In this document: positions 16,821 to 47,932 of the stretch, one piece after another
How positions within the stretch are numbered: position 1 is the first letter of the stretch
Layout: each line of letters begins with the position of its first letter
From: Bradyrhizobium erythrophlei
GTDB taxonomy: Bacteria > Pseudomonadota > Alphaproteobacteria > Rhizobiales > Xanthobacteraceae
DNA length: 64,000 bases
Direction of reading: 5' to 3'
NCBI RefSeq assembly: GCF_900129505.1
Contig: NZ_LT670818.1
Coordinates: forward strand, 4,373,001-4,437,000
Notes under the pieces: model-generated
Databases searched by the model: none
Told to the model about the DNA's origin: nothing
The model's input: only the letters and a program-made list of their open reading frames with translations
Program-made: the position numbers and the translations under genes

Positions 16821-16938
16821 ACTCGCGGCGGGTTCCGTTTTCTCCTTGTCAAACCAACCCGATCGGATCAGATTTAAAGCGCACCGGCCTTCTTTAAATG
16901 CGTCGGTTGAAGTCAACAATAAAATCCGGGGCGGGAAC

Positions 16939-18651
16939 ATGAATAGATTTTCTATCGTATGCGCCGCATTGGTCGGCGCGGCAGGATTATTCACGGGACC
17001 TGGTTTCGCGCAGCAGGAAGTCAAACAGGACGCCAAGTCGGCGTCGGGCCAGGCCAAGGTTTCTCCAGTTACCCAGCAGCAGCTCAACTCAGCAGACAAG
17101 AACTCGACCAATTTTCTGCTGACCAACGGCAATTATGCCCAGACGCGTTTTTATCCCGCGAAGCAGATCGATCGCGACAACGTCAAGAACCTGCACGTCG
17201 CGTGGATCTTCCAGACCGATGTCAAGGAGTCGCTGGAGACCTCGCCGATCGTCGTCGACGGCGTGATGTTCGTGACGACATCGTTCAGCCACGTCTATGC
17301 GCTCGACGCCAAGACCGGCGAACAGCTCTGGCACTATAATCACAAGATGGGGCCGATCACGGTCTATTGCTGCGGTCCCAACAATCGTGGCGTCCAGGTG
17401 CTCGGCGACCTCGTCTATCTCGCCACGCTGGACTCCAAATTGATCGCCCTCAACGCCAAGACCGGCGAGGTCGTCTGGAAGACCGACATCGCCGATCCGG
17501 AACTGGGCTACAGCGAAACGATGGCGCCGACCGTCATCAAGGACAAGGTTCTGATCGGAACGAACGGCGGCGAATACGGCATCCGCGGCTTCGTGAGGGC
17601 CTATGATGCGAAGACCGGGAAGCTGCTGTGGAACTTCAACACCATTCCGGAGAATTCGGTCGGCGTCTGGGCGACCAAGGACGCGACCGGCCGGGACATG
17701 CATCGCGATATCCAGGCCGAAAAGGACCAACTGGCCAAAACCGGCGACCCCTACCAGAAGCTTGGCGGCGGCGTTTGGCAAAATCCCGCCGTCGATCTCG
17801 CCACCAACCGCATCTATTTCTTGGTCGGCAATCCCTCGCCCGATCTCGATGGTTCGATCCGCCCCGGCGACAATCTGTACACGAACTCGCTGGTTTCGCT
17901 CGATCTCGACACCGGCAAATATGTCTGTCACTTCCAGTACATCGCACACGACGTGTGGGACCTCGATGCGGTGAGCCCGGCGGTGCTGGTGGACGTGAAG
18001 GGCAAGGACGGCAAGACCATCCCGGGCGTGATCCATGCCGGCAAGACCGGCCATATCTACGTTCATGACCGGAAGGACTGCAGCCTGATCCGCTTCTCGG
18101 ATGCCATGGTGCCGCAGGAGAACATGTGGGTTCTGCCCACCAAGGAAGGTGCCCGCATGCTTCCCGGAGCGAACGGCGGCGTCGAGTGGTCGCCGATCGC
18201 GACCGATCCCGGACAGGAGCTGGCCTACGCCATCAACCTGCATCAGCCCATGAACTACTTTGTCGAGAACTCGCCGTATCCGAACGGCAAGTTGTGGCTG
18301 GGCGGCGCCTTCAAGGCGATCCCGGGCGAGACGCAGTCCGGCAACATCACCGCGGTCAACTATAACACCGGCAAGATCAAGTGGCAGGTGAAGACGCCGG
18401 AGCCGATGATCGGCGGTATTCTCGCCACCGCGGGCGGTCTTGTTTTCACCGGTGAAGGCAATGGCAAGTTCGCGGCCTACAATTCGTCCAGCGGCAAGGA
18501 GCTCTGGAGCTTCCGCGCCGGTGCCGGCGTCAACGCGCCGCCCTCCAGCTACATGGTCGGCGGCAAGCAATATATCGTGGTCGGTGCGGGCGGCAACACC
18601 CAGGTCGACTTCCGCCGCGGCAACAATATTATCGCATTCTCGCTGAACTGA
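16939..18651 (+). CDS. PQQ-dependent methanol/ethanol-family alcohol dehydrogenase, lanthanide type
   Basis: A 570-aa periplasmic quinoprotein with a signal peptide ending near GPGFA|QQEV and the eight-bladed propeller W-motifs. The adjacent-cysteine pair that stacks on PQQ is C144-C145 (TVYCCGPNN). The metal ligands are E212, N298 and the catalytic base D341. D343, two residues on (HDVWDLDA), is the extra Asp that marks lanthanide-dependent enzymes (XoxF, ExaF/PedH), where calcium enzymes have Ala or Ser. I chose the ATG at 16939 because GGGGCGGGA precedes it and the signal peptide starts there. A cytochrome c gene follows. Sequence features are closer to the ExaF/PedH-like side than to the true XoxF at 24989; the substrate is uncertain. 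Confidence 0.92.
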
Positions 18652-21994: not shown

Positions 21995-22127
21995 GTGCAG
22001 TTCCTCCCATCCTTCGCGCCTCGCTTGGGCAGGATGACATCAGCGCAATCCCGGTCAATGTCCTGCCTTGCGATTGCGCCGGTCGATCCGGGCCGGATTT
22101 GATTTGCCATGTCCACGGGGATGTCGA

Positions 22128-22847
22128 ATGATCGCAGCGAAGGCCGCGACCGTGCGGCACCGCAAAACAAGAATGCGGTTCGAACCTGCAGGGAGGCCCA
22201 GCTTGACTCGCTCGGCGCGTGAGTTTGCCTGCTGCGTTGCGATGATTCTGGCGGTGTCCTCGACACGGCCCGCCTTCGCGCTCGACCCCCGCTATCCGGA
22301 TTGGCCTTGCCAGCAATTGAAGGTCCCGGAGATCTCGATCGCCAGTGTCTGGACGGGCCCTCCGATCGAGGCCACCGACAAGGAGAAGCCCCTCGATCCC
22401 AAGGAAGCGGAACTCGTGGCGCGTCTAGCGGCGCGCCGCACCGCCATCGAGGATGCGCGGAAACTGATCGCGGAGTTCGTGGTCGGGACCAACGAGGAGA
22501 AACAGGAAAAGGCAAAGCGGTTGTTCGCGGCGTTGTATGCGACGCTCAACGCGCAGCGCGAGGAGGTAATGAACGGGATCGAGCGCTTTTCACGCAAGCA
22601 GAAGGCCATGGCCGACGAAATCCGCGAGCAAGCCCGGAAGATTCGGGAAATGCAGGACGCGTCCAGCGCCGATCCGGCGAAGAGCAGCGAACTCGCCAGT
22701 CAACTCTCCTGGCAGACCCGCATTTTCGATGACCGGCGGAAATCGACTGCCTATGTCTGCGACGTGCCCGTGCTGATCGAGAAGCGGCTATTTGACCTGG
22801 CGAGTGCGATTCAGGGCGACTTGGGCGCCGACCAGCCGGCCAAATGA
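22128..22847 (+). CDS. Secreted coiled-coil hypothetical protein
   Basis: 239 aa. A long positively charged n-region is followed by a hydrophobic core (FACCVAMILAVSSTRPAFA) and probable cleavage before LDPRYPDWPCQQ. The mature part is rich in Glu, Lys, Arg and Gln with heptad-like spacing (about residues 90-210), suggesting a helical coiled coil. It has a Cys near each end (PDWPC and YVCDV) that could form a disulfide. I recall similar unnamed proteins beside xox genes but cannot verify that here. The start was chosen at ATG 22128 because GGGGATGTCG precedes it. It converges with the CxxxCW gene. Confidence 0.7.
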   Translation: MIAAKAATVRHRKTRMRFEPAGRPSLTRSAREFACCVAMILAVSSTRPAFALDPRYPDWPCQQLKVPEISIASVWTGPPIEATDKEKPLDPKEAELVARLAARRTAIEDARKLIAEFVVGTNEEKQEKAKRLFAALYATLNAQREEVMNGIERFSRKQKAMADEIREQARKIREMQDASSADPAKSSELASQLSWQTRIFDDRRKSTAYVCDVPVLIEKRLFDLASAIQGDLGADQPAK

Positions 22848-24901: not shown

Positions 24902-24988
24902 TTCCAAATTGGGGCCGGATAAAAAATCGGCGCGCAGCACAACCGCGGCGCGCCGATCCATGGTTATCTTGCCGTGACGTCGCACCAC

Positions 24989-26869
24989 CTATTGGTTGGG
25001 CAATGCAAATACCGTCAATGTCCCGCCCAGCGAGGTATAGGACGCCAGACCCGCATAGCCGCCGACGGCGCCAAGGCCCGCCGTATCGACGGTCTTGTCC
25101 TTGGTCGGCAACTTGCCCTGATCGACCGCGCCATGCCAGGCGGCGGCGTTTTCAGGCTGCAGCAGACCGGCCGCAAGACCGATACCGGCCCAGCCGCCGA
25201 CCCCGGACAGCACCGCGACGTATTGCTTGCCGCCGTGTTCGTAGGTCATGACGTTGCCGATGATCCCGGACGGGGTCTTGAACTTGTAGAGTTCCTTGCC
25301 CGTCTTGGCGTCGACCGCCTTCAGATAGCCTTCGAGCGTGCCGTAGAACACCACGCCGCCGGCCGTCGCCAACGCGCCGCCCCACGCGGAGAACTGCTCC
25401 TTGTTGGACCACACGATCTTGCCGGTCTTGCCGTCCCAGGCGATGAAGTTGCCCATGTTGGTCTCGCCCTTGGGCGGGTACATCGCCACGGCGGCGCCGA
25501 CATAAGCCTGGCCGGCCGTGTAGGAGACCTTGTAGGGCTCATAGTCCATGCAGACATGGTTGGTGGGGACGTAGAACAACTGCGTGTCCGGGCTATAGGC
25601 CGCGGGCTGTTCGTCCTTGGTGCCGAGCGCCGCCGGGCAGATGCCCTTGGAGTTGGTGTCCTCACCATTGTGCTGGGTCGAATAGGCGTCGACGACCAGC
25701 GGACGGCCGTAGGTCTTGGACGACTTGTCCATGTCGACCTTGGTGGCCCAGTTCACCACCGGATCGAACTTTTCCGCGACCAGCAATTCGCCGGTGGCCC
25801 GGTCCAGCGTGTAGCCGAAGCCGTTACGGTCGAAATGGGTGAGCAGTTTCCTCGGCGCGCCATTGATGGTCTGATCGGTGAGGATCATTTCGTTGACGCC
25901 GTCGAAGTCCCATTCGTCGTGCGGGGTCATCTGGTAGACCCATTTGACCGCGCCGGTATCGAGATCACGCGCCCAGATCGACATCGACCAGCGGTTATCG
26001 CCGGGGCGCTGCACCGGGTTCCAGGTCGAGGGATTGCCGGAACCGTAATAGACGAGGTTCAGCTGCGGATCATAGGAATACCAGCCCCAGGTGGCGCCGC
26101 CGCCGATCTTCCACTGGTCGCCCTGCCAGGTGGATGTCGAGGAATCCGGTCCGACGGGCTTGCCGAGCGACGTCGTCTTGACGGGGTCGATCAGCGTGTC
26201 GGAGTCCGGCCCTTCCGAAAAACCGCGCCAGACAAGCTTGCCGTCCGCGATGTTGTAAGCGCTGACCCAGCCGCGAACGCCGAATTCGCCGCCGGAAACG
26301 CCCACCAGGACCTTGTCCTTGTAGACGAACGGAGCGTCCGTGCCGGACTGACCCTTGCCGGCCTCGCCATCCATGACGGACCAGACTTTTGCGCCGGTCT
26401 TGGCGTCGAGTGCGATGAGCGTGGTGTCGGCCTGATGCAGGAAGATCTTGCCGTCGGCGTAGGCGACGCCGCGATTGACGGTGTCGCAGCACATGATCGG
26501 GATGACGTTGGGATCCTGCCTGGGTTCATACTTCCAGAGGATCTTGCCTTCGTTGTTCAGGTCGAGCGCATAGACCGTGTTCGGGAACGGCGTGTGCACA
26601 TACATCGTGTCGCCGACCACCAGCGGTCCGCCCTCGTGGCCGCGAAGCACGCCGGTCGAAAACGTCCAGGCGACCTGCAGCTTGCCGGCGTTGGATGCGT
26701 TGATCTGGTTGAGCTTGGAATAGCGGGTGTTGGCGTCATCGCCTTGCTGCATCACCCACTGCTTGGGATCTTTGGCCAACAGGTCCAGTGCCGCATCGGC
26801 GCGCGCAGCAAGATTCTGCGCGGCCAACAGGCCGAACACCGAGGTTGTCAGGATTAGATATTTCTTCAT
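24989..26869 (-). CDS. xoxF: XoxF, lanthanide-dependent PQQ methanol dehydrogenase
   Basis: 626 aa, signal peptide ending near LAARA|DAAL, then the quinoprotein propeller. The PQQ-stacking Cys pair is C127-C128 ([11 protein letters not shown]). Metal ligands are E195 (SGGEFG), N279 (GSGNPS) and the catalytic base D321. D323 in [12 protein letters not shown] is the additional carboxylate required for lanthanides. [17 protein letters not shown] is also characteristic of XoxF. The ATG at 26869 has GGGAGGAAGCG in front. It heads the xoxFGJ operon; tandem repeats in the long upstream region suggest specific control. Oxidises methanol to formaldehyde (or formate) in the periplasm. Confidence 0.96.
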
Positions 26870-27036
26870 CGCTTCCTCCCTGGGTTTTTGCCTAGAGGGT
26901 CGCTGACGCTCCTTGGAACATGGATCCACGGGACGTCTTCCGCCCTCTCTTGGATTAATTCTCCCGGCACCGTGTCACGGTATGTGTAACGTTATCACGG
27001 GCTCTGAGTCTAAAGTGCGGCGAAGAGTGCCGCCTC

Positions 27037-27310: not shown

Positions 27311-27404
27311 AAAAGTGAAAGGCGGGAAAGTGCCGATTTGTAGGAGCCCGCGGTCTCTCTCCGAGATTTGGCGCGCCCATTTTTCTGCGCTCGCGGAGTG
27401 GGCA

Positions 27405-29666: not shown

Positions 29667-29979
29667 CGTCAACGCCCTTCGTCACTCGCCGTCCGCCGTT
29701 GATGTATCCGGTGGAATGCCGGAAGTTCGGTGCGCTGCAACACAAACATCAAACGGATCTGCCCGCCCAAATAATTTGTCAGGATCGCCAAAGCGGGTCA
29801 AGCTTGGGTCGGCGAACTTGCCGCAGGCAATGCGGTAGGTTACATCGCCGGCTTCGAACCCCAGAGGTCTGCGTGTCCAGCGTGACATATTTCATCGGCG
29901 GTCGACGGCACGGCGCTCGAGGTTCCGAAATTTCTGCTTGCCGGTCTTTCGGATCGGCGCGGACCTTTCGGGAATGCTG

Positions 29980-30756
29980 ATGCCGGCTTCCGCGTTCGCT
30001 CAAACCCCCGCGCTTGAGATCGACCACGTCAGCCATCGTTACGGCACGCGGGTAGCGCTGAACGATGTCAGCCTGACCGTCGGGCAGTCGTCCTTTACCG
30101 TGCTGTTGGGATTGAACGGCGCCGGGAAGTCGACGCTGTTTTCGCTGATCACACGTCTCTATGCGATACGGTCGGGTCAAATCCGCATCTTCGGGCACGA
30201 TGTGGCGCGCGAGCCGGGCGCGGCCTTGAGCAAGCTCGGCGTCGTGTTCCAGTCCCGCGCGCTCGACATCGACATTTCGGTGCGGCAGAACCTGATGTAT
30301 CATGCTGCGCTGCACGGCATCGCCTCGAGCCGGGCCAAGGAATTGATTGCGCAGGTCCTGGACCGCGTGGCAATGGCCGATCGCAGCCTGGAACGGGTCG
30401 GAAATCTCTCGATCGGGCAGATGCGCCGCATCGAGATTGCCCGCGCGCTGCTGCACCAGCCCCGCCTGCTGTTGCTGGACGAGCCGACGGTCGGCCTCGA
30501 TATCAAGGCGCGCGCGGACATTCTCGATCATGTTCGCGGGCTGTCGAAGGAGGAGGGCATCGGCGTGTTGTGGGCGACGCATCTGATCGACGAGGCCGGT
30601 GCCGGCGATGATGTCGTGGTCCTGCATAAGGGCAAGGTTCTCGCCCATGGCGCGCTCGGCGACGTCGTCGCGGGATGCGGTGGTGTTGACCTGCGCGATA
30701 CGTTCAACCGGCTGACAGGGACTGCGGACCGGAACGAACTGGAGACCGCCAGATGA
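29980..30756 (+). CDS. ABC-2 type exporter ATPase, PQQ alcohol dehydrogenase system (LutE-like)
   Basis: 258 aa from ATG 29980 (CGGGA six bases upstream). Walker A GLNGAGKST, signature NLSIGQMRRIE, Walker B LLLLDEPTVGLD and switch ATHL are intact. It is of the drug-export/NodI-like class found with PQQ-dependent alcohol dehydrogenases. In Methylorubrum the corresponding lut genes are linked to lanthanide handling. It overlaps the permease gene by four bases. The transported compound is unknown. Confidence 0.87.
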   Translation: MPASAFAQTPALEIDHVSHRYGTRVALNDVSLTVGQSSFTVLLGLNGAGKSTLFSLITRLYAIRSGQIRIFGHDVAREPGAALSKLGVVFQSRALDIDISVRQNLMYHAALHGIASSRAKELIAQVLDRVAMADRSLERVGNLSIGQMRRIEIARALLHQPRLLLLDEPTVGLDIKARADILDHVRGLSKEEGIGVLWATHLIDEAGAGDDVVVLHKGKVLAHGALGDVVAGCGGVDLRDTFNRLTGTADRNELETAR

Positions 30757-31598
30757 CCGCCATCGCAGACACCATCGACAGGCACAGTTTTTCGCCGGCG
30801 CAATATTTCATCTGCCTCAAGGGCATCGTCTGGCGTGAGGCGCTGCGCTTCATCCACCAGCGCGAACGCTTCGTTTCCGCGCTGGTGCGCCCCCTGGTGT
30901 GGCTCTTCATTTTTGCCGCCGGATTTCGCCAGGTGCTCGGCGTCTCGATCATCCCGCCCTACGAGACCTATGTACTCTACGAGGTGTACATCACGCCCGG
31001 GCTGATCGCGATGATCCAGCTATTCAACGGCATGCAATCGTCGCTGACCATGGTCTATGACCGCGAGACCGGTGGAATGCGCACGCTGCTGGTCAGCCCG
31101 TTCCCGCGCTGGTGGCTGCTCGCCTCGAAGCTGCTGGCGGGTACGCTGGTCTCGGTGCTGCAAGCCTATGCCTTCCTGCTGATCGCCTGGTTCTGGGAGA
31201 TCGAGGCGCCGCCGCTCGGCTATCTGGCGCTGCTGCCGGCGTTGCTGCTCAGTGGGTTCATGCTTGGCGCGCTGGGAATGCTGATTTCGTCGCTGATCAA
31301 GCAGCTTGAGAATTTCGCCGGCGTCATGAATTTTGTTATTTTCCCGATGTTCTTTGCATCCTCGGCGCTCTACCCGCTCTGGCGCGTCAAGGAATCGAGT
31401 CCGCTGCTGTACTATATCTGTGAAGCCAATCCCTTCACGCATGCGACGGAACTGATCCGCTTTGCGCTTTACGAGCAGGTCGCATGGGTCTCCCTGGCCG
31501 TCGTTCTCGGTTGCGCTGTCGTGTTTCTGTTCGGTGCGATCCTCGCCTACGATCCCTCGCGCGGCTTTCTGGCCCGCCGCAATAATCCGGGCGGTTGA
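30753..31598 (+). CDS. ABC-2 type permease, PQQ alcohol dehydrogenase system (LutF-like)
   Basis: 281 aa with six hydrophobic segments from about residue 45 and the ABC-2 family loop YDRETGGMRTLLVSPFPRWW. It pairs with the ATPase encoded just upstream (ATGA overlap). A dedicated binding protein of the same system lies far downstream, at 45186. Exporter-type architecture together with a periplasmic binding protein is unusual but is the known make-up of this quinoprotein-associated group. Confidence 0.87.
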   Translation: MTAIADTIDRHSFSPAQYFICLKGIVWREALRFIHQRERFVSALVRPLVWLFIFAAGFRQVLGVSIIPPYETYVLYEVYITPGLIAMIQLFNGMQSSLTMVYDRETGGMRTLLVSPFPRWWLLASKLLAGTLVSVLQAYAFLLIAWFWEIEAPPLGYLALLPALLLSGFMLGALGMLISSLIKQLENFAGVMNFVIFPMFFASSALYPLWRVKESSPLLYYICEANPFTHATELIRFALYEQVAWVSLAVVLGCAVVFLFGAILAYDPSRGFLARRNNPGG

Positions 31599-31618: not shown

Positions 31619-34045
31619 TCAGAAGGTAGCCCTCAGGCCGGCATAAAAGGCGCGGGGGCGTGCCGGGCTGACCGAACGTGCGTCCGTGAACGGCGCGCCG
31701 CCATTGGCGAAATTCGGAACGGCGTCGGTATTGAAGAACGTTCCGTAGGTCGCGTATCGGTTATCGAAAATGTTGTCCGCCCGCGCATAGATCTGGAACG
31801 TTTTGTCGATCTGATACGAGGCATGCAGGTTGAAGACCGCATAAGAAGGTAGTCGCTGCGCCTGGTTGGATTCGTCGCCGACGAAGTACTGGCTGTCGAC
31901 GAACAGCGCATCGCCCCCGAGCTTGAATGCGTCGGTGACGGAATAATCGAAGCCGGCCTTGATCCGGTTGCGCGGAATGGCCGGAATGCGGTTGCCCGGG
32001 AGAATCTGGACGTTGCCATTGGCGTCGGCGAAGGGGCTGTTGGAGCCAACCTGCAGCGTGTCGAGGAATCGCGCGTCCACCAGCGCATAGCTGGCGTAGA
32101 CCTGCAGCGTGCTCGACTTCAGATTAACTTCGGCTTCGATGCCCTGGCGGCGGGTCCGGCCGACGTTCTGGAAATAGCCGAAGCCCTGCAGGACCGGGCT
32201 GGGAATGGCGAGGATGTCGTCGGAATTATCCGAGCGGAACGCGCCGAGCTTCCAGCCCAGCGTGCCGATGTTGAGATCCCTGGTGCCGCGGAGGCCGGCT
32301 TCCACGGTGCGGGACACCACTTGTTTCAACGGCGGGTCGGAAACCAGGAAGGCCGCGACAATGCAGGGATGCGCGGGATCGGCGCATCCCAGTTCAAGCG
32401 GGGTGGGCGCGCGGTTGGCTTCGGAATAACCGGCATAGGCCGTTAGTCCCTGGGTGATCTTGTAGGTGCCGCCGATGATCGGATTAAAGCGGGTGTAGGT
32501 ATCGCTGCCGTTGAGCGAGGTGCCGATCTGGTCTTGCAGGCTGATGTTAGCGACGTTGAAGCGGCCGCCGCCGGTGAGTGCGAACGCATTCGTGACGTCG
32601 AACGTATCGAGCGCATAAAGCCCGGTATACTGATTGGTGGTACGAAGATCGACCGGGCCGATCGAGACGGGATCGCCGGATTGGCCGAGAAAAATGCCGG
32701 AACCGCTGACGACAAAATTCGAGCCGATGGTGCCGAGCTCGGCGCTGGCCGTGAAGCGGGTGACACTGGAGTCGAAGCTGGCTCCGACCACAAAATGATT
32801 GTTGTGGCCGAACAACTGATCGATATTGGTTGCCTGCAACGACACGCCGGTGGTGGTCGAGTGGGTCGTGGTGCGGTCGCTTTCGCCCAGCACCGCTGTG
32901 GGATCGAAGGGATTGGCGAGCTGGGCACCGTTGAGGCCGTTGGCCGGCGTGCTGCCGTTACCGAAACAAAGCAGCGTATTGTCGGCAGCGCAGGGCTGGG
33001 TGCCGGTCGGGTTGGCGTCCAGCATGTTTTGATCGAAAATCCGCACATGCGCTGAGCCGTCGATCGTCCAGGTCGGCGTGACCTCGACCTTTCCCGTCAG
33101 ATTGACGTAGCCGACGCGGTTTTCGGTCGTTTGCGGCGTGGTGTAGGTTGCCCCCCAATATTGCTGGAGCAATTCGACAGGTACGGTCGCGCTCGCGCCG
33201 AAATGGTTGTCGGCCGCGCCCATGTTGAGATGGAACTCGCTGGTATCGTTCCTATAACCGACGTCGCCGTAGAAGCGGCGAACGTCCGATGCTGAAAAAT
33301 TGCGAAATCCGTCGTCGTGCAATCCCTCGAGTGCACCGTAGACGGCAAAATTATCGACCTGCTTGCCCCACTGCGCCGAGCTCTGGACCCGCCCGAACGA
33401 GCCGCCCATCGTATCGATTTCGGCGCCGTGATAGCTGAATCCGTCCTTCATCTGCACGTTGACGGCGCCGCCCAGCGCATTGAGGCCGAAGGCGGGATTG
33501 TTGGTCACCACGGTGACCGATTTTATCGCGGTGGTCGGAATCAGGTCCCAGTTGACGGTATCGCCGAACGCTTCGTTGACGCGCACGCCGTTCTGGTAGA
33601 CCGCAAGCCCCTGGGGCGTGCCGGCCACGGGGGAGGCGACGAAACCGCGAAATTGCACATTGGGCTGGAATGGGTTGCCGGTGACATCATTGACCAAGAT
33701 ACCCGGCACGTATTTTTGCAGCGCATCGCTGATGTTCAGCGACCCGGTTCGCTTGATCTGAGCGGCGTCGACGACATTGACGCTCGCCGGGATTTTATCG
33801 GGGTTTATGCCCGCGCCGGAAATGGGCGTGGTCGGATAGACCACGAGCCGGGGCAGGCTCCGTGCGGTGCGCGTCGCATTCTGGGTTCGGCCGGGTTTGC
33901 TGCCGGGCTTCGTGCCGGTCACGACGATGGCCGGCAACCTCTCGGCGGTGGCGGGCTCTTCCTGGGCCCGAGCACAATCATTCCCGCAAAACAGGCACAG
34001 CAAAACCCACGCCAAAAGCAGGAAGCGAGCGCCCATCCGTCCCAT
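31619..34045 (-). CDS. TonB-dependent outer-membrane receptor, likely for a lanthanide complex
   Basis: 808 aa: signal peptide (ARFLLLAWVLLCLFC..ARA), a TonB-box-like segment (PAIVVTGTKPG), a plug domain (about residues 70-190, with GVRVNEAFGDTVNWDLIP) and a 22-strand-type barrel ending in ...FYAGLRATF with a terminal Phe. Its location inside a xox cluster, beside LutE/LutF-like genes and a lanmodulin, makes it a candidate LutH-type receptor for lanthanides bound to an organic chelator. A role for PQQ or iron cannot be excluded. The start could be ATG 34045 or 34036. It is preceded by paired GGGAAA repeats. Confidence 0.88.
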   Translation of the reverse strand: MGRMGARFLLLAWVLLCLFCGNDCARAQEEPATAERLPAIVVTGTKPGSKPGRTQNATRTARSLPRLVVYPTTPISGAGINPDKIPASVNVVDAAQIKRTGSLNISDALQKYVPGILVNDVTGNPFQPNVQFRGFVASPVAGTPQGLAVYQNGVRVNEAFGDTVNWDLIPTTAIKSVTVVTNNPAFGLNALGGAVNVQMKDGFSYHGAEIDTMGGSFGRVQSSAQWGKQVDNFAVYGALEGLHDDGFRNFSASDVRRFYGDVGYRNDTSEFHLNMGAADNHFGASATVPVELLQQYWGATYTTPQTTENRVGYVNLTGKVEVTPTWTIDGSAHVRIFDQNMLDANPTGTQPCAADNTLLCFGNGSTPANGLNGAQLANPFDPTAVLGESDRTTTHSTTTGVSLQATNIDQLFGHNNHFVVGASFDSSVTRFTASAELGTIGSNFVVSGSGIFLGQSGDPVSIGPVDLRTTNQYTGLYALDTFDVTNAFALTGGGRFNVANISLQDQIGTSLNGSDTYTRFNPIIGGTYKITQGLTAYAGYSEANRAPTPLELGCADPAHPCIVAAFLVSDPPLKQVVSRTVEAGLRGTRDLNIGTLGWKLGAFRSDNSDDILAIPSPVLQGFGYFQNVGRTRRQGIEAEVNLKSSTLQVYASYALVDARFLDTLQVGSNSPFADANGNVQILPGNRIPAIPRNRIKAGFDYSVTDAFKLGGDALFVDSQYFVGDESNQAQRLPSYAVFNLHASYQIDKTFQIYARADNIFDNRYATYGTFFNTDAVPNFANGGAPFTDARSVSPARPRAFYAGLRATF

Positions 34046-37180: not shown

Positions 37181-37877
37181 GCGGTTGTACCAGAAAACCT
37201 TCAGTCACAAGCATCAGCGCGATGAAGGATATGGCATAACTCAGTATCTTGGCCATGTCGAACAGCGAGAATGCCGAACCCAGCACGAACCCCACGCCGT
37301 TCGGGCGTCCGATCAACTCGACCACCAGCACGATTTTCCAGACGATCGAGAGGCCGGAGCGCGAGCTGGCCGCCAGATAGGGCGCGAGCTGCGGTATCAC
37401 AACGTGGCGAATTCTCCTGATCCAGCTGAATTTAAAGGCCTTCGCCATTTCGTCGAGATCGGGGTCGAGCGCGCGCGCGCCCTCGCGCATGACGACGGTC
37501 ACATTGGGCAGCTTGTTGACCGCCACGGCCAGGATCGCGGCGGTTTCGTTGAGGCCGATCCAGATGTAGGCGAAAATGATCGTGACCAGGGCCGGCATAT
37601 TGATCAGCACGACGAGCCATGGATCGGCGTATCGATCGATGGCCGTCGAGCGGCCCATCGCATAGCCTGCGATGGTGCCGAGGACCATCGCGATCGCGAA
37701 AGAACCGGTCACGCGTGCGAGCGTGCAGCTCATTTGAAACGGCAATTCGCCGGAGCGGAGGTCGGTGAGGATGGTAGCCCCGATCGTCAGCGGTCCCGGC
37801 AGCAGCCGCGATTGAGCCAGTGCCGCCGCGACGGCCCAAACGGCGACCATGGCGACCAGCGAAAGAATTCTCGGCAA
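37140..37877 (-). CDS. ABC importer permease (SsuC/TauC-like)
   Basis: 245 aa with about six transmembrane segments and the EAA-type cytoplasmic loop (EMAKAFKFSWIRRIRHVVIP). It probably starts at a TTG (37877): GGAGAGTGAGC lies just upstream and the frame has no earlier start of quality. The binding-protein gene ends four bases before. Its substrate is unknown; its place between regulator, TonB receptor and periplasmic EF-hand proteins makes a lanthanide-chelator or cofactor uptake role conceivable. Confidence 0.87.
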   Translation of the reverse strand: MPRILSLVAMVAVWAVAAALAQSRLLPGPLTIGATILTDLRSGELPFQMSCTLARVTGSFAIAMVLGTIAGYAMGRSTAIDRYADPWLVVLINMPALVTIIFAYIWIGLNETAAILAVAVNKLPNVTVVMREGARALDPDLDEMAKAFKFSWIRRIRHVVIPQLAPYLAASSRSGLSIVWKIVLVVELIGRPNGVGFVLGSAFSLFDMAKILSYAISFIALMLVTEGFLVQPLERRAIRWRRRPA

Positions 37878-37880
37878 AGC

Positions 37881-38849
37881 TCACTCTCCGCTCGGGGTCG
37901 GTTGATAATAAAGGCCCGAATCAAGCACCTGCGATGGACCCACCAGTTCAGGGCCGCCGATGCTCGCGAGCGCCTTGAACAGCGCGCGCGCATCCGCTTC
38001 TTCCGCGGCGACCGGCCGTCGGGGTATCCCCTCCCTGGTGCGGTCACGATACGCCTTGAACGTCCAATCATCCTCCGCCCTCATCAGCGGGCGCAGCGCA
38101 TCCCATTCCTCGTCCGATCGCAGCAAGATGTCGTTGGCCGCCTGCGCCGCCGCGATGAAGCGGTCGATCGTGTTCCTGTGGCGTTCGGCGAATTCCTCGG
38201 AGAACGCGTAGCCGACCATCGCCACCGGTTCGCTCAATCCGAATGAGGCCTGCGCATCGCGCACGTCGAGCAGCCGGCGATAGCCCTGAGCCTCGAGCCT
38301 GGCGCAAAAATTCCAGAAATTTAGACCGGCTTCGGCTTCGCCCTGCAGCAATTTCTGGAAGATCAGCGGCGGGGCACCGTACGCGACGGTCGCCTCGCGC
38401 TTGAGATTAACGCCCTGACGGATCGCGGCCGCCTGGACAATCAACCAGCTCTTGTCGAGCGGGCCGCCCGCGACGGCGAGAACCTTGCCCTTGAGATCGC
38501 CAAGCGTCCGCAACGGTGAATCGCCCCGTACCATGATGGAGCCGACCGCGCTGGAATAGGGATAGAACAGCAATTTCGCGCCGAGGGCGCGCGTCCGCGC
38601 AGCCCACAGCCAATCGACGACGGCGAGATCCACCGAACCGCTGTTGAGCGCGAGCTTGCCCGCGTCGGGCGACGCATATTCGCTGATCTTCAAATCAAGG
38701 CCGGCTTTGGCGGCAAGGCCGTGGCGGCGGATCACGTCGAGTTGCCAGGCGAATGTCCCGGTCGTTTGCAGGCCGATGCGCAAGGTCTCGTTGGCCAGCA
38801 TCGGAGTAACCCCGAGCACGACGCAGAGCGTTACGAAGATTCTCAACAT
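37881..38849 (-). CDS. ABC importer substrate-binding protein (NMT1/SsuA-like)
   Basis: 322 aa with a signal peptide (IFVTLCVVLGVTPMLA|NETLRIGL) and a type II binding fold. The LRIGLQTTGTFAWQLDVIRRHGL start and SGSVDLAVVDWLW segment are typical of the SsuA/TauA/NMT1 superfamily. It is first in the three-gene importer operon. Relatives occur in quinoprotein clusters, but the ligand is undetermined. Confidence 0.88.
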   Translation of the reverse strand: MLRIFVTLCVVLGVTPMLANETLRIGLQTTGTFAWQLDVIRRHGLAAKAGLDLKISEYASPDAGKLALNSGSVDLAVVDWLWAARTRALGAKLLFYPYSSAVGSIMVRGDSPLRTLGDLKGKVLAVAGGPLDKSWLIVQAAAIRQGVNLKREATVAYGAPPLIFQKLLQGEAEAGLNFWNFCARLEAQGYRRLLDVRDAQASFGLSEPVAMVGYAFSEEFAERHRNTIDRFIAAAQAANDILLRSDEEWDALRPLMRAEDDWTFKAYRDRTREGIPRRPVAAEEADARALFKALASIGGPELVGPSQVLDSGLYYQPTPSGE

Positions 38850-39066: not shown

Positions 39067-39960
39067 ATGGCGGGGGCATCGAAACGCTTTGCTAGGGCGG
39101 CAAGACGGGCGGCAGAATCCTGCCTGCTGCTGGCGCTTGCGACACTTCCGACCGGCGCCCGCTGCGGCACCATCGAGACCGAGCATCTGTTCGGCTTCAC
39201 CATCGGAAGCGATGTCGGGGACGTCGGGGAAAGAGAGCTGGAGGGTTCCGTCACGGGCCGATTCGCAAAGCGGAACGGATTGTACGGGGCGACCGAAAGC
39301 ACGATGTCCGCGGAGTTCGTGCCGATCGCCAATCTTCGAACCGAGATTACCGGTGCCGTCGTTTCCTATGACATTGCCGGGGTGAGCGGGCTCGCCGATC
39401 AGCGCTATGCGGCGTTCGGAGGCCTGTCCGCCGATATCCGCTACCGGTTGCTTGATCGCGCGAGCGCGCCGTTCGGCCTTGCGGTCGGCGCCGAGCCGCA
39501 TTGGGGCCGGGCCGATGAGGTAACCGGCGAACCCGGCAGGCAATACGGCGTCGACTTTGTCGCGGCCGCCGATTGGGAGATCGTTCCGGATCGCGTCGTC
39601 GCGGCTTTCAATCTGCTCTACCAGCCCGAAACCATGCGCTCGAACATGACCGGCACCTGGTCGCAGGAATCCACGGCCGGCATTGCGTTTGCCGTGATGG
39701 CGCAGGTCCGTTCCGGGATCTTTGTTGGCGGCGAAGCGCGCTATTTGCGCAAGTACGACGGCCTTGGGCTGGATGCGCTCGCCGGGCAGGGCTTTTTCAT
39801 CGGGCCGACGATCTATGTCAAACTCTCCGAGAAGGCCTGGATCACGGTGGCGTGGAGCGCGCAAGCGGCCGGCCAGGCTACGGCATCGTCAGCCGGTGCG
39901 CTCGACCTCGTCAATTTCGAACGGCGCCAGGCGCGGGTCCTGTTCGGCGTGAACTTTTGA
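39067..39960 (+). CDS. Putative outer-membrane beta-barrel protein
   Basis: 297 aa. A basic n-region and hydrophobic core (SCLLLALATLPTGARC) form a signal peptide. The mature protein alternates polar and hydrophobic residues, with many aromatic girdle residues, and ends ...RVLFGVNF with a terminal Phe, the usual outer-membrane barrel signature. I do not recognise a named family. It lies between the importer binding-protein gene and the one-EF-hand gene, so it may act as a channel for the same system. Confidence 0.72.
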   Translation: MAGASKRFARAARRAAESCLLLALATLPTGARCGTIETEHLFGFTIGSDVGDVGERELEGSVTGRFAKRNGLYGATESTMSAEFVPIANLRTEITGAVVSYDIAGVSGLADQRYAAFGGLSADIRYRLLDRASAPFGLAVGAEPHWGRADEVTGEPGRQYGVDFVAAADWEIVPDRVVAAFNLLYQPETMRSNMTGTWSQESTAGIAFAVMAQVRSGIFVGGEARYLRKYDGLGLDALAGQGFFIGPTIYVKLSEKAWITVAWSAQAAGQATASSAGALDLVNFERRQARVLFGVNF

Positions 39961-40011: not shown

Positions 40012-40353
40012 CTATTTCGCGCAGTCCTTGAGAGTTTTTTCCTCGATGGTGAAGACCGCGCCTGTCCTGACTTCGATATTGGGAACCACGCAGGTCCGCC
40101 CGCTTTTGTCGGCAAATTTGACGTCATATATGCCGGGCGCCGTGTCGGTGATTTTCAGGCGCTCGTCGTGATCGACGGTGCCATCCCGATCGTTGTCGGC
40201 CTGGTTGCGGCCCCAATCGTTCTTGCCAGCTGGGGAAAGCTGCAGTGAGGTGATGGTATTGGCCGTCAGGTTCCAGAACCTTGTGTCTTTTGCCGACGCC
40301 GCAATCGGAACGAAAGCTAAAACGAAGACCATCAACGCGGTCGTCCTGGCCAT
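40012..40353 (-). CDS. Small periplasmic protein with a single carboxylate-rich EF-hand loop
   Basis: 113 aa: signal peptide (residues 1-21, cleavage IAASA|KD), then a small beta-rich domain and one canonical 12-residue EF loop D53-N-D-R-D-G-T-V-D-H-D-E64. Asp at positions 1, 3, 5 and 9 and Glu at 12 give a set of ligands like lanmodulin's loops; Asp at position 9 is uncommon in ordinary calcium EF-hands. Two Cys (C88, C111) may pair. A strong GGGAGGACAAGAACA site precedes the ATG. It sits between the outer-membrane protein and the formaldehyde genes, so a lanthanide-binding or chaperone role is an attractive inference, unproven. Confidence 0.85.
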   Translation of the reverse strand: MARTTALMVFVLAFVPIAASAKDTRFWNLTANTITSLQLSPAGKNDWGRNQADNDRDGTVDHDERLKITDTAPGIYDVKFADKSGRTCVVPNIEVRTGAVFTIEEKTLKDCAK

Positions 40354-40454
40354 TGTTCTTGTCCTCCCAAATGTTGGGCGCCAATTTTTCCCGGTGAACC
40401 GGTCAGGCGCCATCGTGTCGTCGGAACTGTTGGATTGATTGGGCAACCGTTCGA

Positions 40455-41300
40455 TCATGCCTTTAGCCGTGCGGCGTGCCAGCGCAGGTGATCCGCCATG
40501 AAGGTCGATACAAAGTAATAGCTGTGGTCGTAGCCGGGCTGGCGGCGAAGGAGCAGGGGAATGCCCGCCACCGAACAGACGCGCTCCAGAAGTTCCGGGC
40601 GAAGTTGCACAGTCAGGAATTGATCGGCGTCGCCGACGTCGACCAGGAGATCGGAAAACCTCGCGCCGTCCTCGATCAGAAAGACCGTATCGTGCTTGCG
40701 CCACGCATCGCGGGCCTCGCCGAGGTAGCCACCGAGCGCCTTGACCCCCCATGGTACTTGCGATGGCGCGACGATGGGCGAAAAGGCGCTGGCGGCGCGG
40801 TAGCGATCCGGATGTCGCAGCGCAATGGTCAGTGCGCCATGTCCGCCCATCGAATGACCCAGGATCGATTGCCGCTTTTGATCGACGGGAAAATGGCCGG
40901 CGATCAGTTCGGGCAGTTCTGCCGTCACATAGCTCCACATGCGGTAATTGCGCGCGAACGGCGCTTGCGTGGCATCGACATAGAAGCCGGCGCCCAAACC
41001 GAAATCGTAAGCGCCGGCGGGATCGCCGGGCACGTCGTCGCCGCGCGGGCTGGTGTCCGGCGCGACAAAGATCAACCCCAATTCAGAACAGGCCTGGCGA
41101 AATTCTCCCTTCTCGGTGACGTTGGCGTGGGTGCAGGTCAGACCCGACAAGTACCAGACCACCGGAAGCTTCGCGCCCGCCTGGTGCGGAGGGACAAAGA
41201 CCGAAAAGGTCATGTTCGTCCCGGTCTCGCGGCTCGCGTGCTTGTAGACGCCCTGGACCCCATCAAACGACCGGTTTGTCGAAACGGTTTCGAGCGTCAT
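40455..41300 (-). CDS. fghA: S-formylglutathione hydrolase
   Basis: 281 aa esterase-D family enzyme that cleaves S-formylglutathione to formate and glutathione, the last step of glutathione-linked formaldehyde oxidation. The nucleophile Ser lies in ILGHSMGGHGAL; Asp (in DVGDADQFL) and His (in GYDHSYYF) complete the triad. YLSGLTCTHANVTEKG is family-specific. It is on the same strand as gfa and the formaldehyde dehydrogenase gene upstream; the spacing of about 100 bp suggests one operon. Confidence 0.96.
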   Translation of the reverse strand: MTLETVSTNRSFDGVQGVYKHASRETGTNMTFSVFVPPHQAGAKLPVVWYLSGLTCTHANVTEKGEFRQACSELGLIFVAPDTSPRGDDVPGDPAGAYDFGLGAGFYVDATQAPFARNYRMWSYVTAELPELIAGHFPVDQKRQSILGHSMGGHGALTIALRHPDRYRAASAFSPIVAPSQVPWGVKALGGYLGEARDAWRKHDTVFLIEDGARFSDLLVDVGDADQFLTVQLRPELLERVCSVAGIPLLLRRQPGYDHSYYFVSTFMADHLRWHAARLKA

Positions 41301-41403: not shown

Positions 41404-41973
41404 TCAGGCGGCCTTGGGTTTCGACTTCGCCACATGGGTGGCGATCGCGTCCATCAGCGCCGGTGACAGGCAATCATAGGGTTCGAGCCCGAGCTCCCTA
41501 AGGCGCGAACGGATCCCGTCCATCTCGGAAGGGTCGACGCCGGACTCGATCACCGAGGACACGAACGCCGCAAATCCAGGTGCCGCGGAGCCCTGCTCCT
41601 GGAACAGCTCGGGATGGATGAAGTCCAGCCCGTAGAACGGGTGCGCCTTGTTCTCGATGCGGCCGTACATATGGGTGCCGCAGACCTTGCAGGCGTGCCG
41701 CTGGATCGTCGCGGAGGCATCGATGATGTGAAGCTTGTCGCCGTTCTCGAGAACGGTCACGTTGTCCCGCGGCACCACCGCCACCACCGAGAAAATCGCC
41801 CCGTCGGGTTTCCAGCACTTGGTGCAGCCGCAGGCGTGATTATGCGCGACGTCGCCCCTGACGCCGACCTTGACCGGCTTGTCCTGGCATTTACAGACCA
41901 GGGTTCCGCCGGCAAAGCTGCCCGAACCCTGCTTCACTCCGCTATCAACCGACGGATGGATGTGAACAGTCAT
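41404..41973 (-). CDS. gfa: S-(hydroxymethyl)glutathione synthase (Gfa)
   Basis: 189 aa GFA-family protein that speeds addition of formaldehyde to glutathione. The zinc Cys ligands are visible in [20 protein letters not shown] and [13 protein letters not shown]. The start is ATG 41973 with GGGAGGATTGGTT upstream; the preceding in-frame TTG is not needed. It lies between the dehydrogenase and hydrolase genes of the same pathway. Confidence 0.95.
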
Positions 41974-42029
41974 AACCAATCCTCCCTTGTGTTTGACGAC
42001 TTTGATTTAGAACTCAGAATCCGTTCGAT

Positions 42030-43139
<1,110 letters not shown>

Positions 43140-43186
43140 TTGCCGTTCCTCCCCTCATAGTTTTTTTCTTCTTGATCTGGGCTTTT

Positions 43187-43961: not shown

Positions 43962-44945
43962 TCAGTTCGCGCCAAAGGCGACACCCCACGGCAATTCGCC
44001 GACCTGAATGGATTTGATGACCTTCAGTCCCGCCACGTCGATCACCGAGACGTCGTTGGAGACGCCGTTGGCCACGACAAGATATTTTTCGTCCGGCGTA
44101 AAAGCGCCGTGCCAGACTCTCTGGCCGACCAGCAGGTATTTCAGGACGGCGTGAGTGACACCATCGACCACCGCGACCCGGTTGGCGGGGCCGAGATCGA
44201 TGAAGCCGAGCTTGCCGTCCTTGGTGATGTTGATGCCGACCGGCTGGATTGCCTCGGATCGCAGGCCCGGAATTTCGAACTTTACGGTCTGCTTGAGCTG
44301 GCGCGTGGCCGGATCGATGATCGCGAGGTCGCCGCCGATCTCCGAGCTTACCCATAGTTCCGATCCGTCGGCCTTGTACGCCGAAAAGCGAGGACGAGAG
44401 CCGACCAGCAAATTGCCGACGATCTGGCGGCTTGTGGTGTCGATGAAATGAACCATGCTGGTCGTTTCCGACGTGCATATCAGTGTTTTGGAATCCGGGC
44501 TGACGGTCATGCCCTCGGGCTCGATGCCGACCGAGACCTCGCCGACGGACGCCCGCTTCTGAAGGTCGATCACGGTCACCATCGCGTCATTTTCGTTGGC
44601 GACATAGAGCAGCTTGCCTGCCGGATCGATCGTGAATTGTTCCGGGTCGGGACCGGACGGCAGATCGCCGGCGCTGTTGAAGGTCTTCGCGTCAAAGACC
44701 TGGATGATGTCATCGTCGCCGAGGGCGACATAGACCAGCTTGCCGTCACGGGAGACTTCGATACCGCGCGGGCGCTGCCCTGTCTTGATGGTTGCGATCG
44801 TCTCCATCTTGTCCGTGTCGATCACGGAGATGGAATTGCCTTTTTCGTTGGAAACATAGGCAAGGAAGGCAAAAGCGGAACCGGCCGAGAGAGAGAGCCC
44901 GAGCAGGGAGAGGCCAAGTGCCGCAGCCAAGCGCAAATCGATCAT
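43962..44945 (-). CDS. YVTN beta-propeller protein of PQQ-dependent catabolism
   Basis: 327 aa with a signal peptide (ALGLSLLGLSLSAGSAFA) followed by about seven YVTN-type propeller repeats (AYVSNEKGNSISVIDTDKME, LLYVANENDAMVTVIDLQK, VYVALGDDDIIQVFDAKT). This matches the propeller family found next to PQQ alcohol dehydrogenases. Its role, perhaps as a scaffold or metal-binding protein, is not established. GGAGGCCACTAC precedes the ATG. It is divergent from the quinoprotein-associated binding protein gene. Confidence 0.9.
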   Translation of the reverse strand: MIDLRLAAALGLSLLGLSLSAGSAFAFLAYVSNEKGNSISVIDTDKMETIATIKTGQRPRGIEVSRDGKLVYVALGDDDIIQVFDAKTFNSAGDLPSGPDPEQFTIDPAGKLLYVANENDAMVTVIDLQKRASVGEVSVGIEPEGMTVSPDSKTLICTSETTSMVHFIDTTSRQIVGNLLVGSRPRFSAYKADGSELWVSSEIGGDLAIIDPATRQLKQTVKFEIPGLRSEAIQPVGINITKDGKLGFIDLGPANRVAVVDGVTHAVLKYLLVGQRVWHGAFTPDEKYLVVANGVSNDVSVIDVAGLKVIKSIQVGELPWGVAFGAN

Positions 44946-45185
44946 GTAGTGGCCTCCAACGCCTCAGGTCCGCACGATGCAGGCATTGTTTGCCCGCCGA
45001 GAACGCTCAGTCTATCTGACGCTGATCCGCTGAAATAGACAATCGTCCCATGGTCAAACGGAACCAACGCACTCGCCGCTTCGTTGCGCTGCTCGGTAAA
45101 TGGAGTACCCTGATCGTCGCGAGAAATGTTGCGATGCAATCGAGCCGCACAGCTTGCACGACGAGCATCGCATTGGAGGCGTGGT

Positions 45186-46370
45186 TTGTTCCGGATTCTG
45201 TTTGCACTCTGCGCTCTCGTAATCTGGAGCGGGGCCGGGCTCGCCGACCAGCCGCTGGAAATCAAGATCGGTTATCTCCATCAGGCGCCGTCGCGAATCC
45301 GGATATCGCTGATCGATGTGCCGGCGGCCAACGATGGCCTGGCCGGCGCGCAATTGGCGACCGAAGACGATAACGCCACCGGACGCTTTCTCAACCAGCA
45401 TTATACGCTGCTCGATAAGCTGGTCGGCGAGGGCGATGATCCGGTCGCGGCCATGAATGCGCTGGCCGATCAGGGAGCGTCGTTCATCGTGACGAGCCTC
45501 GATGCGGGCCGGCTGCTCAGGGTTGCCGACGCGGGTCAGGCGCGCGGCGAAACATTGATCAACGTATCCGCCTTGGACGAACGCCTGCGCGAGCAGGATT
45601 GCCGCGGCAATGTCATCCATGTCGCGCCGACGCGGTCCATGCTGGCCGACGGGCTTGCGCAATATCTGGTGTGGAAGAAGTGGCGCAAATGGATGCTGCT
45701 GGTGGGCTCCCATGAAAACGACGGCCTGTTTGCCGACGCCTTGCGTCATGCCGCGACGCGGTTCGGAGCCAAGATCGTCGAAGAGAGGGTATTCAAGGAC
45801 AATGGCGGCGCACGGCGCACCGACAGCGGGGTCGCCGAGATTCAGCGGCAGATGCCGGTGGTGACGCAAGGTGCGGCAGACCATGATGTGCTGGTAGCGG
45901 CCGATGAAAGCGAGGTTTTCGCGGGCTACCTGCCGTACCGGACGTGGGATGCGCGCCCCGTCGCCGGTTCAGCAGGGCTCGTCCCCACCACATGGGATGC
46001 GGCGTTCGATCAATGGGGCGCCGTGCAACTGCAGAATCGCTTCACAAAGACCTATCAGCGCGCGATGACGGCGCTGGACATGCAGGCCTGGACGGCGGTT
46101 CGCATGATCGGCGAGGCCGGTGTCCGAGGCGGCTCCGGCGAGCCCGGCAAGATGCTCGCGTATATCAAGAGCCCGGACTTCTCGGTCGCAGCCTTCAAGG
46201 GCCAAAAACTGACGCTGCGCGACTGGAACCTACAACTGCGGCAACCGATCCTGCTGTTCGACGGCCGGAATACGGTATCGGTGTCGCCGCAGGAGGGTTT
46301 CCTTCACCAGGTATCGGCGCTCGATACGCTCGGCCTCGATCGCCCCGAAACCAAGTGCAAATTCAAGTGA
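45186..46370 (+). CDS. Substrate-binding protein of the PQQ alcohol dehydrogenase ABC system (LutA-like)
   Basis: 394 aa type I binding protein. A TTG start at 45186 is supported by a perfect GGAGG six bases upstream. From there a signal peptide runs FRILFALCALVIWSGAGLA|DQPLEIKIGYLHQ. An ATG at 45126 would add a long non-signal extension. IGYLHQAPSRIRISLIDVPAAND is typical of the quinoprotein-associated group whose ATPase and permease lie at 29980-31598. In Methylorubrum the equivalent gene, as I recall, is lutA of the lanthanide transport cluster. The ligand is unknown. Confidence 0.87.
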   Translation: MFRILFALCALVIWSGAGLADQPLEIKIGYLHQAPSRIRISLIDVPAANDGLAGAQLATEDDNATGRFLNQHYTLLDKLVGEGDDPVAAMNALADQGASFIVTSLDAGRLLRVADAGQARGETLINVSALDERLREQDCRGNVIHVAPTRSMLADGLAQYLVWKKWRKWMLLVGSHENDGLFADALRHAATRFGAKIVEERVFKDNGGARRTDSGVAEIQRQMPVVTQGAADHDVLVAADESEVFAGYLPYRTWDARPVAGSAGLVPTTWDAAFDQWGAVQLQNRFTKTYQRAMTALDMQAWTAVRMIGEAGVRGGSGEPGKMLAYIKSPDFSVAAFKGQKLTLRDWNLQLRQPILLFDGRNTVSVSPQEGFLHQVSALDTLGLDRPETKCKFK

Positions 46371-47417: not shown

Positions 47418-47825
47418 CTATTTCAGCAGTCGCAGCAGCGCCTGACCCGCCTTGGTGCTCAACTCCTTGGCGTCCAGCGTCCCGTCATGATCGGGATCCG
47501 CGGCATTGAAGCGCTGCTCGACAACCGCGAGATATTCGTCCTTGGTGAGGGTCCCGTCGTGGTCCGGATCGGCCGCGGCCAATTCCTTTGCGGTCAATCG
47601 GCGGGCGAGCTCTCGTTTGTCGAGCGTGCCGTCATGGTCGCGATCCAGTTTGTCGAATGTGCTTGACGCCGCCTTCTTCGCCTCGGCGAGATCGATCGTG
47701 CCGTCGTTGTCCGTATCGAACATACCGATGGCGCCGGCATGGCCGGACTTCGCCAGGACCGGCAACGCGCCGGCAAGCAAGGTGCCGACGGCAAGGGTGA
47801 GAACAAAAGTGCGGCGGGATATCAT
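47418..47825 (-). CDS. lanM: Lanmodulin, periplasmic lanthanide-binding EF-hand protein
   Basis: 135 aa with a Tat-like signal (ISRRTFVLTLA, cleavage near VLA|KSG). There are four EF loops: D37-E48 (DTDNDGTIDLAE), D61-E72 (DRDHDGTLDKRE), D86-E97 (DPDHDGTLTKDE) and D110-E121 (DPDHDGTLDAKE). Only 12-13 residues separate successive loops, the lanmodulin hallmark (about 25 in calmodulin-type proteins). Asp at loop position 9 in three loops, and FDKLDRDHDGTLD, closely follow Methylorubrum LanM. Differences: Pro at loop position 2 is present only in EF3 and EF4, EF3 has Thr94 at position 9, and EF4 starts with Asp. GGGGAGG precedes the ATG at 47825. Confidence 0.93.
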   Translation of the reverse strand: MISRRTFVLTLAVGTLLAGALPVLAKSGHAGAIGMFDTDNDGTIDLAEAKKAASSTFDKLDRDHDGTLDKRELARRLTAKELAAADPDHDGTLTKDEYLAVVEQRFNAADPDHDGTLDAKELSTKAGQALLRLLK

Positions 47826-47932
47826 GGCTAAAACCTCCCCTGGTTCGGACCTGAACGACACATCCGCACGGCGGAGTGTGTTCCGTCGCTTATGTATATC
47901 CCATTGGACGACTTTCCGCAGCGAACAGAAGA

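Follow-up and report, generated by a model that had tools for sequence, protein, structure and literature searches.

A small, probably exported protein with one acidic loop in a Bradyrhizobium lanthanide gene neighbourhood: a candidate rare-earth carrier

What might a 113-residue protein with a single acidic loop be doing among the lanthanide-related genes of Bradyrhizobium erythrophlei? The protein, named EFL here, is encoded on the minus strand (40012-40353) of the window, that is, the whole 64,000-nucleotide stretch of DNA that was analysed. A preliminary description had proposed it as a new lanthanide-binding protein with an EF-hand loop.

The reading frame and its loop are as that description gave them, and they are beyond chance, because 2356 homologues were found at E ≤ 0.01 (the best 120 of these 2356 are 80-93% identical) and relatives with as little as 30% identity still have the loop. 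Translation gives 113 residues, and the loop D53-E64 has Asp at positions 1, 3, 5 and 9 and Glu at position 12. The strong ribosome-binding site claimed for the gene is also present (Table 1). EFL is probably exported: its N-terminus, MARTTALMVFVLAFVPIAASA followed by K, resembles a Sec signal peptide when judged by eye, and in the family alignments the signal region is variable, with conservation starting at about residue 22. The gene had further been placed between an outer-membrane protein and a formaldehyde operon. This is true in the window, where fghA lies upstream of EFL on the same strand with 101 bp between them, but the placement is local, and many relatives adjoin xox, lut, SoxYZ-like or second-type PQQ-dehydrogenase genes, not formaldehyde genes. 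Both fghA and the outer-membrane-like gene recur near or beside EFL in other loci, the latter by synteny; an NCBIfam search with the outer-membrane-like protein gave no match.

Judged by gene content, the surroundings of EFL are a lanthanide island (Table 1). XoxF is accompanied by XoxG/XoxJ-like genes, named by recognition. The transporter, propeller and TonB genes are read as lut-type from their order and from the descriptions of LutA to LutH in the available text of PMC7391723 and PMC9291206, the latter of which describes LutB as a YVTN beta-propeller. Three NCBIfam families matched in the window (TIGR03861, TIGR03863 and TIGR03864) are parts of a PQQ-associated ABC transporter. The lutH-like receptor has 40-50% relatives beside lanM-like genes in other loci, and the lutG-like protein matches that of Beijerinckia sp. 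L45 (locus L012) at 35% over 193 residues. A lanmodulin homologue, which had no part in the argument of the preliminary description, lies 7 kb from EFL and matches the lanmodulin entries 8fns and 6mi5 of the PDB at E 1e-31. For Bradyrhizobium, the available text of PMC12628762 reports lanthanide-dependent growth on methanol and homologues of lutABEFG; the word lanmodulin is absent from its main text.

Table 1. Positions of EFL and of the neighbouring genes discussed in the text
Feature	Coordinates	Strand	Basis
EFL gene	40012..40353	-	ORF, ATG start; 113 aa; no internal stop; family profile A2
Putative Sec signal peptide, EFL residues 1-21 (AxA/K)	40291..40353	-	By eye, no predictor
Putative metal loop D53-E64 of EFL (DNDRDGTVDHDE)	40162..40197	-	ORF translation and relatives
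Ribosome-binding site GGGAGGA of EFL	40362..40368	-	Ends 8 bases before ATG
fghA (S-formylglutathione hydrolase-like)	40455..41300	-	ORF; name by recognition
gfa-like gene and class III alcohol/formaldehyde dehydrogenase-like adhI	41404..43139	-	ORFs; names by recognition
Outer-membrane-like protein gene	39067..39960	+	ORF; convergent to EFL
XoxF-type PQQ dehydrogenase, lanthanide-type WDFD	24989..26869	-	TIGR03075 and motif
Second PQQ dehydrogenase (WDLD), type tied to EFL in Beijerinckiaceae	16936..18651	+	NCBIfam and motif
lutB-like beta-propeller protein	43962..44945	-	TIGR03866
lutA-like ABC binding protein	45126..46370	+	TIGR03863; lut equivalence inferred from gene order
lutE/lutF-like ABC transporter	29938..31598	+	TIGR03864, TIGR03861
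lutH-like TonB-dependent receptor	31619..34045	-	TonB families
lutG-like exported protein	22068..22847	+	ORF; start position approximate
Lanmodulin homologue, four EF-hands	47418..47861	-	Whole-genome search; PDB matches

Other genes of the window recur in related settings. The WDLD dehydrogenase shares the segment 16936-20447 with a cytochrome c gene and an ankyrin-repeat gene. A metallo-beta-lactamase-like protein (27315-28343, +) and a SoxYZ-like carrier protein (TIGR04557; 28440-29279, +) recur in xox clusters near EFL, and an SsuABC-like ABC transporter (36419-38849, -) recurs beside EFL and lut-type genes. Relatives of an uncharacterised 72-aa ORF (43663-43881, +) travel with EFL, giving tblastn matches in 32 of 48 loci, a few of which overlap.

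The genome consists of one 9.18-Mb contig, in which a whole-genome search found a single EFL. At about 1.36 Mb it holds a second copy of xoxG-xoxF and adhI-gfa (L048, C1:1354000-1373000), whose DNA is 99.5% and 97.8% identical to window positions 24359-26880 and 41404-43141 and whose arrangement differs. This copy reads as a recent duplication or gene conversion, and no EFL match was found in that stretch.

EFL has no Pfam or NCBIfam assignment. Four weak Pfam matches appear at E ≤ 10, among which EF-hand_5 scores 13.2 bits, below its curated cut-off of 25.9. The MoaF match (E 0.093) was likewise rejected as below cut-off. The JGI label of V8-like Glu-specific endopeptidase that some homologues carry was rejected because neither Pfam nor NCBIfam backs it. 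Searches of the PDB with the single sequence and two profiles found no significant relative (best E 1.5, 0.51 and 0.35).

Within its own family of bacteria, EFL was found in 31 of 149 genomes by whole-genome search. The EFL domain was matched in 51 of 199 Beijerinckiaceae genomes, 49 of them loop-bearing: two with only a loop-less form (G477, G575) were not counted as EFL genomes, whereas one whose loop is one residue short (G603) and one whose gene is split over two frames (G514) were. In the order, 18 of 297 genomes gave a match; three loop-less ones were set aside from the count, and the 15 loop-bearing ones include two (G200, G429) whose loop is decayed. A class-wide sample yielded EFL in 1 of 289 genomes, the window's own, so that at this depth of sampling the family appears restricted to Rhizobiales. 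A plasmid search gave no match.

What the family preserves is above all the loop. The profile run over the fetched loci returned 126 rows, reduced to 108 by removing identical cores; excluding 10 without an intact loop by our own rule leaves 98 distinct loop-bearing relatives, whose mature parts have a minimum pairwise identity of 0.30 and a median of 0.50. Counting D53 as position 1, Asp occupies position 3 (D55) in 98/98 and position 5 (D57) in 95/98, position 9 (D61) is acidic in 98/98 (82 Asp, 16 Glu), and position 12 (E64) is Glu in 98/98; all four acids are kept together in 95 of the 98. Position 11 (D63) is Asp in 96, position 8 is hydrophobic (Val or Ile) in 96, Gly occupies position 6 in 38, and position 2 is Asn in 80 and Pro in none. 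R65 (89 relatives) and H62 (69) are conserved beside the acids. Position 1, Asp in the window's own EFL, is variable: Leu in 47, Lys in 25, Asp in 8, Ala in 8, Glu in 5, Val in 3 and Gln in 2. Mean column entropy is 0.94 bits over residues 54-65 against 1.55 bits in the rest of the mature chain. These alignments mark the loop as one of the best-conserved parts of the chain, though it is no canonical EF-hand loop. Shifting the register by two residues would place Leu at position 12, and this alternative was rejected for that reason.

The retained acids can be compared with a known lanthanide site. For EF1-3 of La-bound Hans-LanM, the available text of PMC10232371 gives N1 as monodentate, D3, D5, E9 and E12 as all bidentate, and a backbone oxygen at position 7 as a further ligand. 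The four acids that the EFL family retains (3, 5, 9 and 12) occupy the positions of the bidentate La ligands. Because these four are kept and position 1 is dropped, the loop would by analogy be a lanthanide-like site that is open on one side.

The predicted fold departs from an EF-hand. The AlphaFold2 model built from a diverse alignment (A2, 47 rows) has a mean pLDDT of 85 (86-94 when averaged by block across residues 21-113); an earlier one (A1), built on close homologues alone, was poor (pLDDT 71), and its PDB matches were not used. EFL is predicted to be all-beta, with one short helix (51-54), the loop and then a strand (65-68), that is, a beta-sandwich and not an EF-hand domain. An EF-hand is helix-loop-helix and has ligands at positions 1, 3, 5, 7, 9 and 12; the EFL model, which is a prediction only, has helix-loop-strand, and position 1 is unconserved. 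The EF-hand identity given in the preliminary description is thus not supported, while the lanthanide role that it proposed is supported by linkage to xoxF, lut-type and lanM genes. A PDB fold search with the A2 model returned weak matches of a generic beta-sandwich kind; landiscernin and lanmodulin were not among the 50 matches listed, which is uninformative about relationship. Cys88 is present in 97 of the 98 relatives and Cys111 in 95 (the other three being gaps), and this conservation suggests a Cys88-Cys111 disulfide.

In its own family EFL keeps company with XoxF, which was counted at a threshold of at least 66% identity or as an 87% fragment. By this count XoxF is present in 26 of 31 genomes with EFL versus 19 of 118 without it (Fisher p 2e-12), two genomes with only 43% matches (G072, G129) not being counted as having XoxF. 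The preliminary description had pointed to synteny with xoxF across genomes, and it was found: in 23 of 23 genomes with both genes on the same contig, the gap (to the nearest XoxF where there are several) is 2.2-19.6 kb, with a median of 6.1 kb. The remaining 3 of the 26 carry them on different contigs. In the five EFL genomes not counted as XoxF-bearing, the genes adjoining EFL are a XoxF fragment (G132), DxD-bearing PQQ dehydrogenases of 32-34% identity (G080), and SoxYZ/MBL, XoxJ/PedC or PedC/lutA-like genes (G010, G099 and G131). A xox-, lut- or PQQ-type gene lies in the fetched stretch of 28 of 30 loci (L017-L046).

The association extends to Beijerinckiaceae. Taking a PQQ dehydrogenase as a match to the XoxF query at E ≤ 1e-80 or to the second-type query at E ≤ 1e-100, one is found in 47 of 49 genomes with a loop-bearing EFL versus 54 of 150 others (p 8e-15). 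The two exceptions (G572, G614) have a LanM-like protein, and lutA/lutB-like genes adjoin their EFL; the stretch fetched for G614 also ends with a 53% XoxF fragment. Of the 22 genomes that have a dehydrogenase of the second type, 20 also carry EFL. LanM-like proteins, a search for which may include other four-EF-hand proteins, were found in 30 of all 51 EFL genomes versus 29 of 148 others (p 4e-7). EFL is directly beside a LanM-like gene in G437, G439, G527 and G594 and 4 kb away in G595. For example, Beijerinckia sp. L45 (L012, G437) has the order lutA-lutB-lutE-lutF-lutG-like-EFL, followed by lanM on the opposite strand; its LanM, the only one of the four checked against the PDB, matches lanmodulin 6mi5 at E 2e-24.

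Linkage is not universal in this group. Around EFL, the fetched stretch contains a gene of the xox, lut, PQQ or lanM type in 32 of the 49 genomes, and 5 of the other 17 have a lutH-like TonB receptor (49-52%) there. In the remaining 12 of the 49, neither any of these gene types nor a lutH-like receptor was found in that stretch, and several of the 12 stretches hold housekeeping genes. No linked gene was found near EFL in L066 and L067. Several loci have the second-type dehydrogenase within a few kb of EFL (L086-L088, L118, L120, L136, L139, L144). In other loci of some Beijerinckiaceae (L122, L126, L134, L140, L079, L082, L102) the neighbour of EFL is a lutH-like TonB receptor, a histidine kinase related to that at 34160-35566 of the window, or both; such neighbours hint at a sensing module.

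Across the order, a XoxF-query match at E ≤ 1e-80 was obtained in 15 of 15 genomes with EFL versus 88 of 282 (p 6e-8). Since 88 of the 103 XoxF-positive genomes have no EFL, EFL is not required for XoxF. The lanthanide DxD is present in 61 of 64 PQQ-dehydrogenase rows of the fetched loci, some genes being counted twice; the exceptions are L081 (WDYA), L092 (WDFA) and L127 (WDFS), and in the first two EFL lies 2-8 kb from these calcium-type dehydrogenases. Homologues thus do not occur mainly in organisms without lanthanide enzymes, the distribution that the preliminary description had named as speaking against its proposal. Linkage to lanthanide enzymes and uptake genes, applied as a test for the lanthanome, holds for EFL, though not in every genome. 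Shared ancestry is not taken into account by the Fisher tests. The order sample and the Beijerinckiaceae sample overlap, and some genomes recur across samples with different handles; these co-occurrence tests carry less weight than the physical linkage, which persists across rearranged loci.

Loop-less genomes provide a natural control that points the same way, in small numbers. Small relatives of the EFL domain without the loop (profile E 1e-17 to 6e-7) were found at L047, L063-L065, L093, L094, L145 and L146. Five of the eight genomes concerned hold only the loop-less form (G215, G280 and G350 in the order; G477 and G575 in Beijerinckiaceae), and none of the five has a XoxF-type match (3/3 and 2/2); G477 and G575 have no second-type dehydrogenase or LanM-like match either. 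The other three (G095, G450, G461) have both forms, the loop-less copy and an EFL with the loop, and they do have a PQQ dehydrogenase. On the opposing side, at L061 and L062 the loop is decayed (NDDNNQAEADER, NDDNNVAESDER), though these genomes have XoxF.

On balance, we favour the view that EFL is a periplasmic lanthanide carrier or chaperone with an open hand-off site and putative metal binding. A scaffold that differs from those of the lanthanide-binding proteins considered below, together with the company of rare-earth enzyme and uptake genes in many soil bacteria, makes EFL probably an undescribed part of bacterial rare-earth handling. EFL would be a disulfide-tied beta-sandwich presenting one exposed, carboxylate-rich loop, in which the acids at positions 3, 5, 9 and 12 (D55, D57, D61 and E64) would grip Ln3+ from one side, the position-1 ligand being missing. 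The open side would let EFL take up the metal and release it to a partner; it might, for instance, connect the TonB/lut uptake route with lanmodulin and with apo-XoxF or a related PQQ dehydrogenase. A preference for Ln3+ over Ca2+ would be expected because the position typical of calcium sites has been given up; the loop acids could bind Ca2+ instead. That a single loop needs a partner or a dimer is plausible. A bolder proposal, offered tentatively, is that EFL represents, as its first member, a distinct class of natural lanthanide metallochaperones, defined by a beta-sandwich, a half-open four-carboxylate loop and metal-bridged docking to a partner. The loop would have lost the position-1 ligand of calcium EF-hands, and the partner (lanmodulin, apo-XoxF or a second EFL) would supply the remaining ligands.

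The same loop and neighbours can be read in other ways. EFL might be a calcium-binding protein of the PQQ-dehydrogenase system, its loop being a structural or sensing site like the Dx[DN]xDG loops and its lanthanide link incidental to periplasmic PQQ enzymes. Such loops occur in many folds, beta folds included, and bind Ca2+ according to the available text of PMC3123361; the predicted helix into the loop and strand out of it would fit this group, and the L081 and L092 copies lie near calcium-type dehydrogenases. However, the motif's Asp at position 1 is found in 8 of 98 relatives and its Gly at position 6 in 38, position 9 is acidic in all 98, and the neighbours of EFL include lanM-like genes and lanthanide-type dehydrogenases. 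A calcium role is considered unlikely on these grounds. Metal would be unnecessary if EFL were a docking or assembly partner of XoxF, of related PQQ dehydrogenases or of their cytochrome, its loop meeting a basic surface. Linkage to dehydrogenase clusters, as strong as that to lut genes, would suit such a partner, as would the presence of EFL in 20 of 22 second-type genomes and the conservation of R65 (89/98) and H62 (69/98) beside the acids. Docking has no need, however, of acids spaced 3-5-9-12 around a hydrophobic position 8 (96/98), which is the pattern of a metal loop, and this account is held to be distinctly improbable.

A protective function also has to be considered, in which EFL would act as a lanthanide sink or buffer guarding the periplasm from excess or unwanted Ln3+, and not as a supplier of XoxF. 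EFL does adjoin lanM-like genes, and landiscernin, a proposed protector, is said to act as a siphon (available text of PMC11996626). Yet EFL tracks dehydrogenase clusters also in the 19 of 49 loop-bearing Beijerinckiaceae genomes without a LanM-like match, and a pure sink appears very improbable.

That the function was undescribed, as had been supposed, agrees with the open-licence literature, in which no description of the EFL family was found; subscription papers and preprints lie largely outside that scope. None of the La-regulated proteins in the available lists for Methylocella silvestris (PMC9291206) and RH AL1 (PMC10848612) is recognisable as EFL. Few natural non-enzyme lanthanide-binding proteins have been described, lanmodulin, landiscernin and lanpepsy among them. 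Conserved, small, probably cysteine-paired and located beside xoxF and lanM, EFL would be a concrete candidate for the missing step from Ln3+ to XoxF in rhizobia. With a loop that keeps the La-binding acids and drops the calcium-site ligand, it could serve as a natural test case for lanthanide selectivity and as a compact new scaffold for rare-earth capture.

Among the known systems, landiscernin (LanD/LutD, PDB 9c8w) has a single metal site. It resembles EFL in being a small periplasmic lanthanide-binding protein of the lut cluster, EFL being small and probably exported; lanthanide binding by LutD is described in the available text of PMC7391723. The landiscernin PDB chain has 61 residues and no sequence similarity to EFL, and EFL was rejected as a landiscernin after it and two profiles gave no match to 9c8w at E ≤ 10. 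The LutD relative from an AM1-type lut cluster (L114) matches 9c8w at E 1e-14, and a LutC-like protein gave no PDB match at E ≤ 1. With lanmodulin, EFL shares small size, probable export, the acidic 12-residue type of loop and an acid at position 9. However, lanmodulin has four helix-loop-helix EF-hands, 12-13 residues apart by the criterion in the available text of PMC10232371, whereas the single loop of EFL sits on a scaffold predicted to be a beta-sandwich; the lanmodulin feature of Pro as second residue in one or more loops is absent from the EFL family (98 relatives). EFL was accordingly rejected as a lanmodulin, having a single loop and a likeness to the window's LanM that is confined to that loop, just as the preliminary description had held for lanmodulin in general. 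Lanpepsy (LanP), a periplasmic lanthanide-binding protein outside the LanM family, has two PepSY domains (available text of PMC12482762), whereas EFL has none among its four weak Pfam matches at E ≤ 10. The loop-less small relatives have the same domain as EFL by profile, but without the acidic loop. Finally, the EFL family differs from the Dx[DN]xDG calcium loops of non-EF-hand folds in lacking the first Asp in 90 of 98 relatives and the Gly in 60, yet resembles them in carrying an Asp-rich loop on an unrelated scaffold, in this case a predicted beta one.
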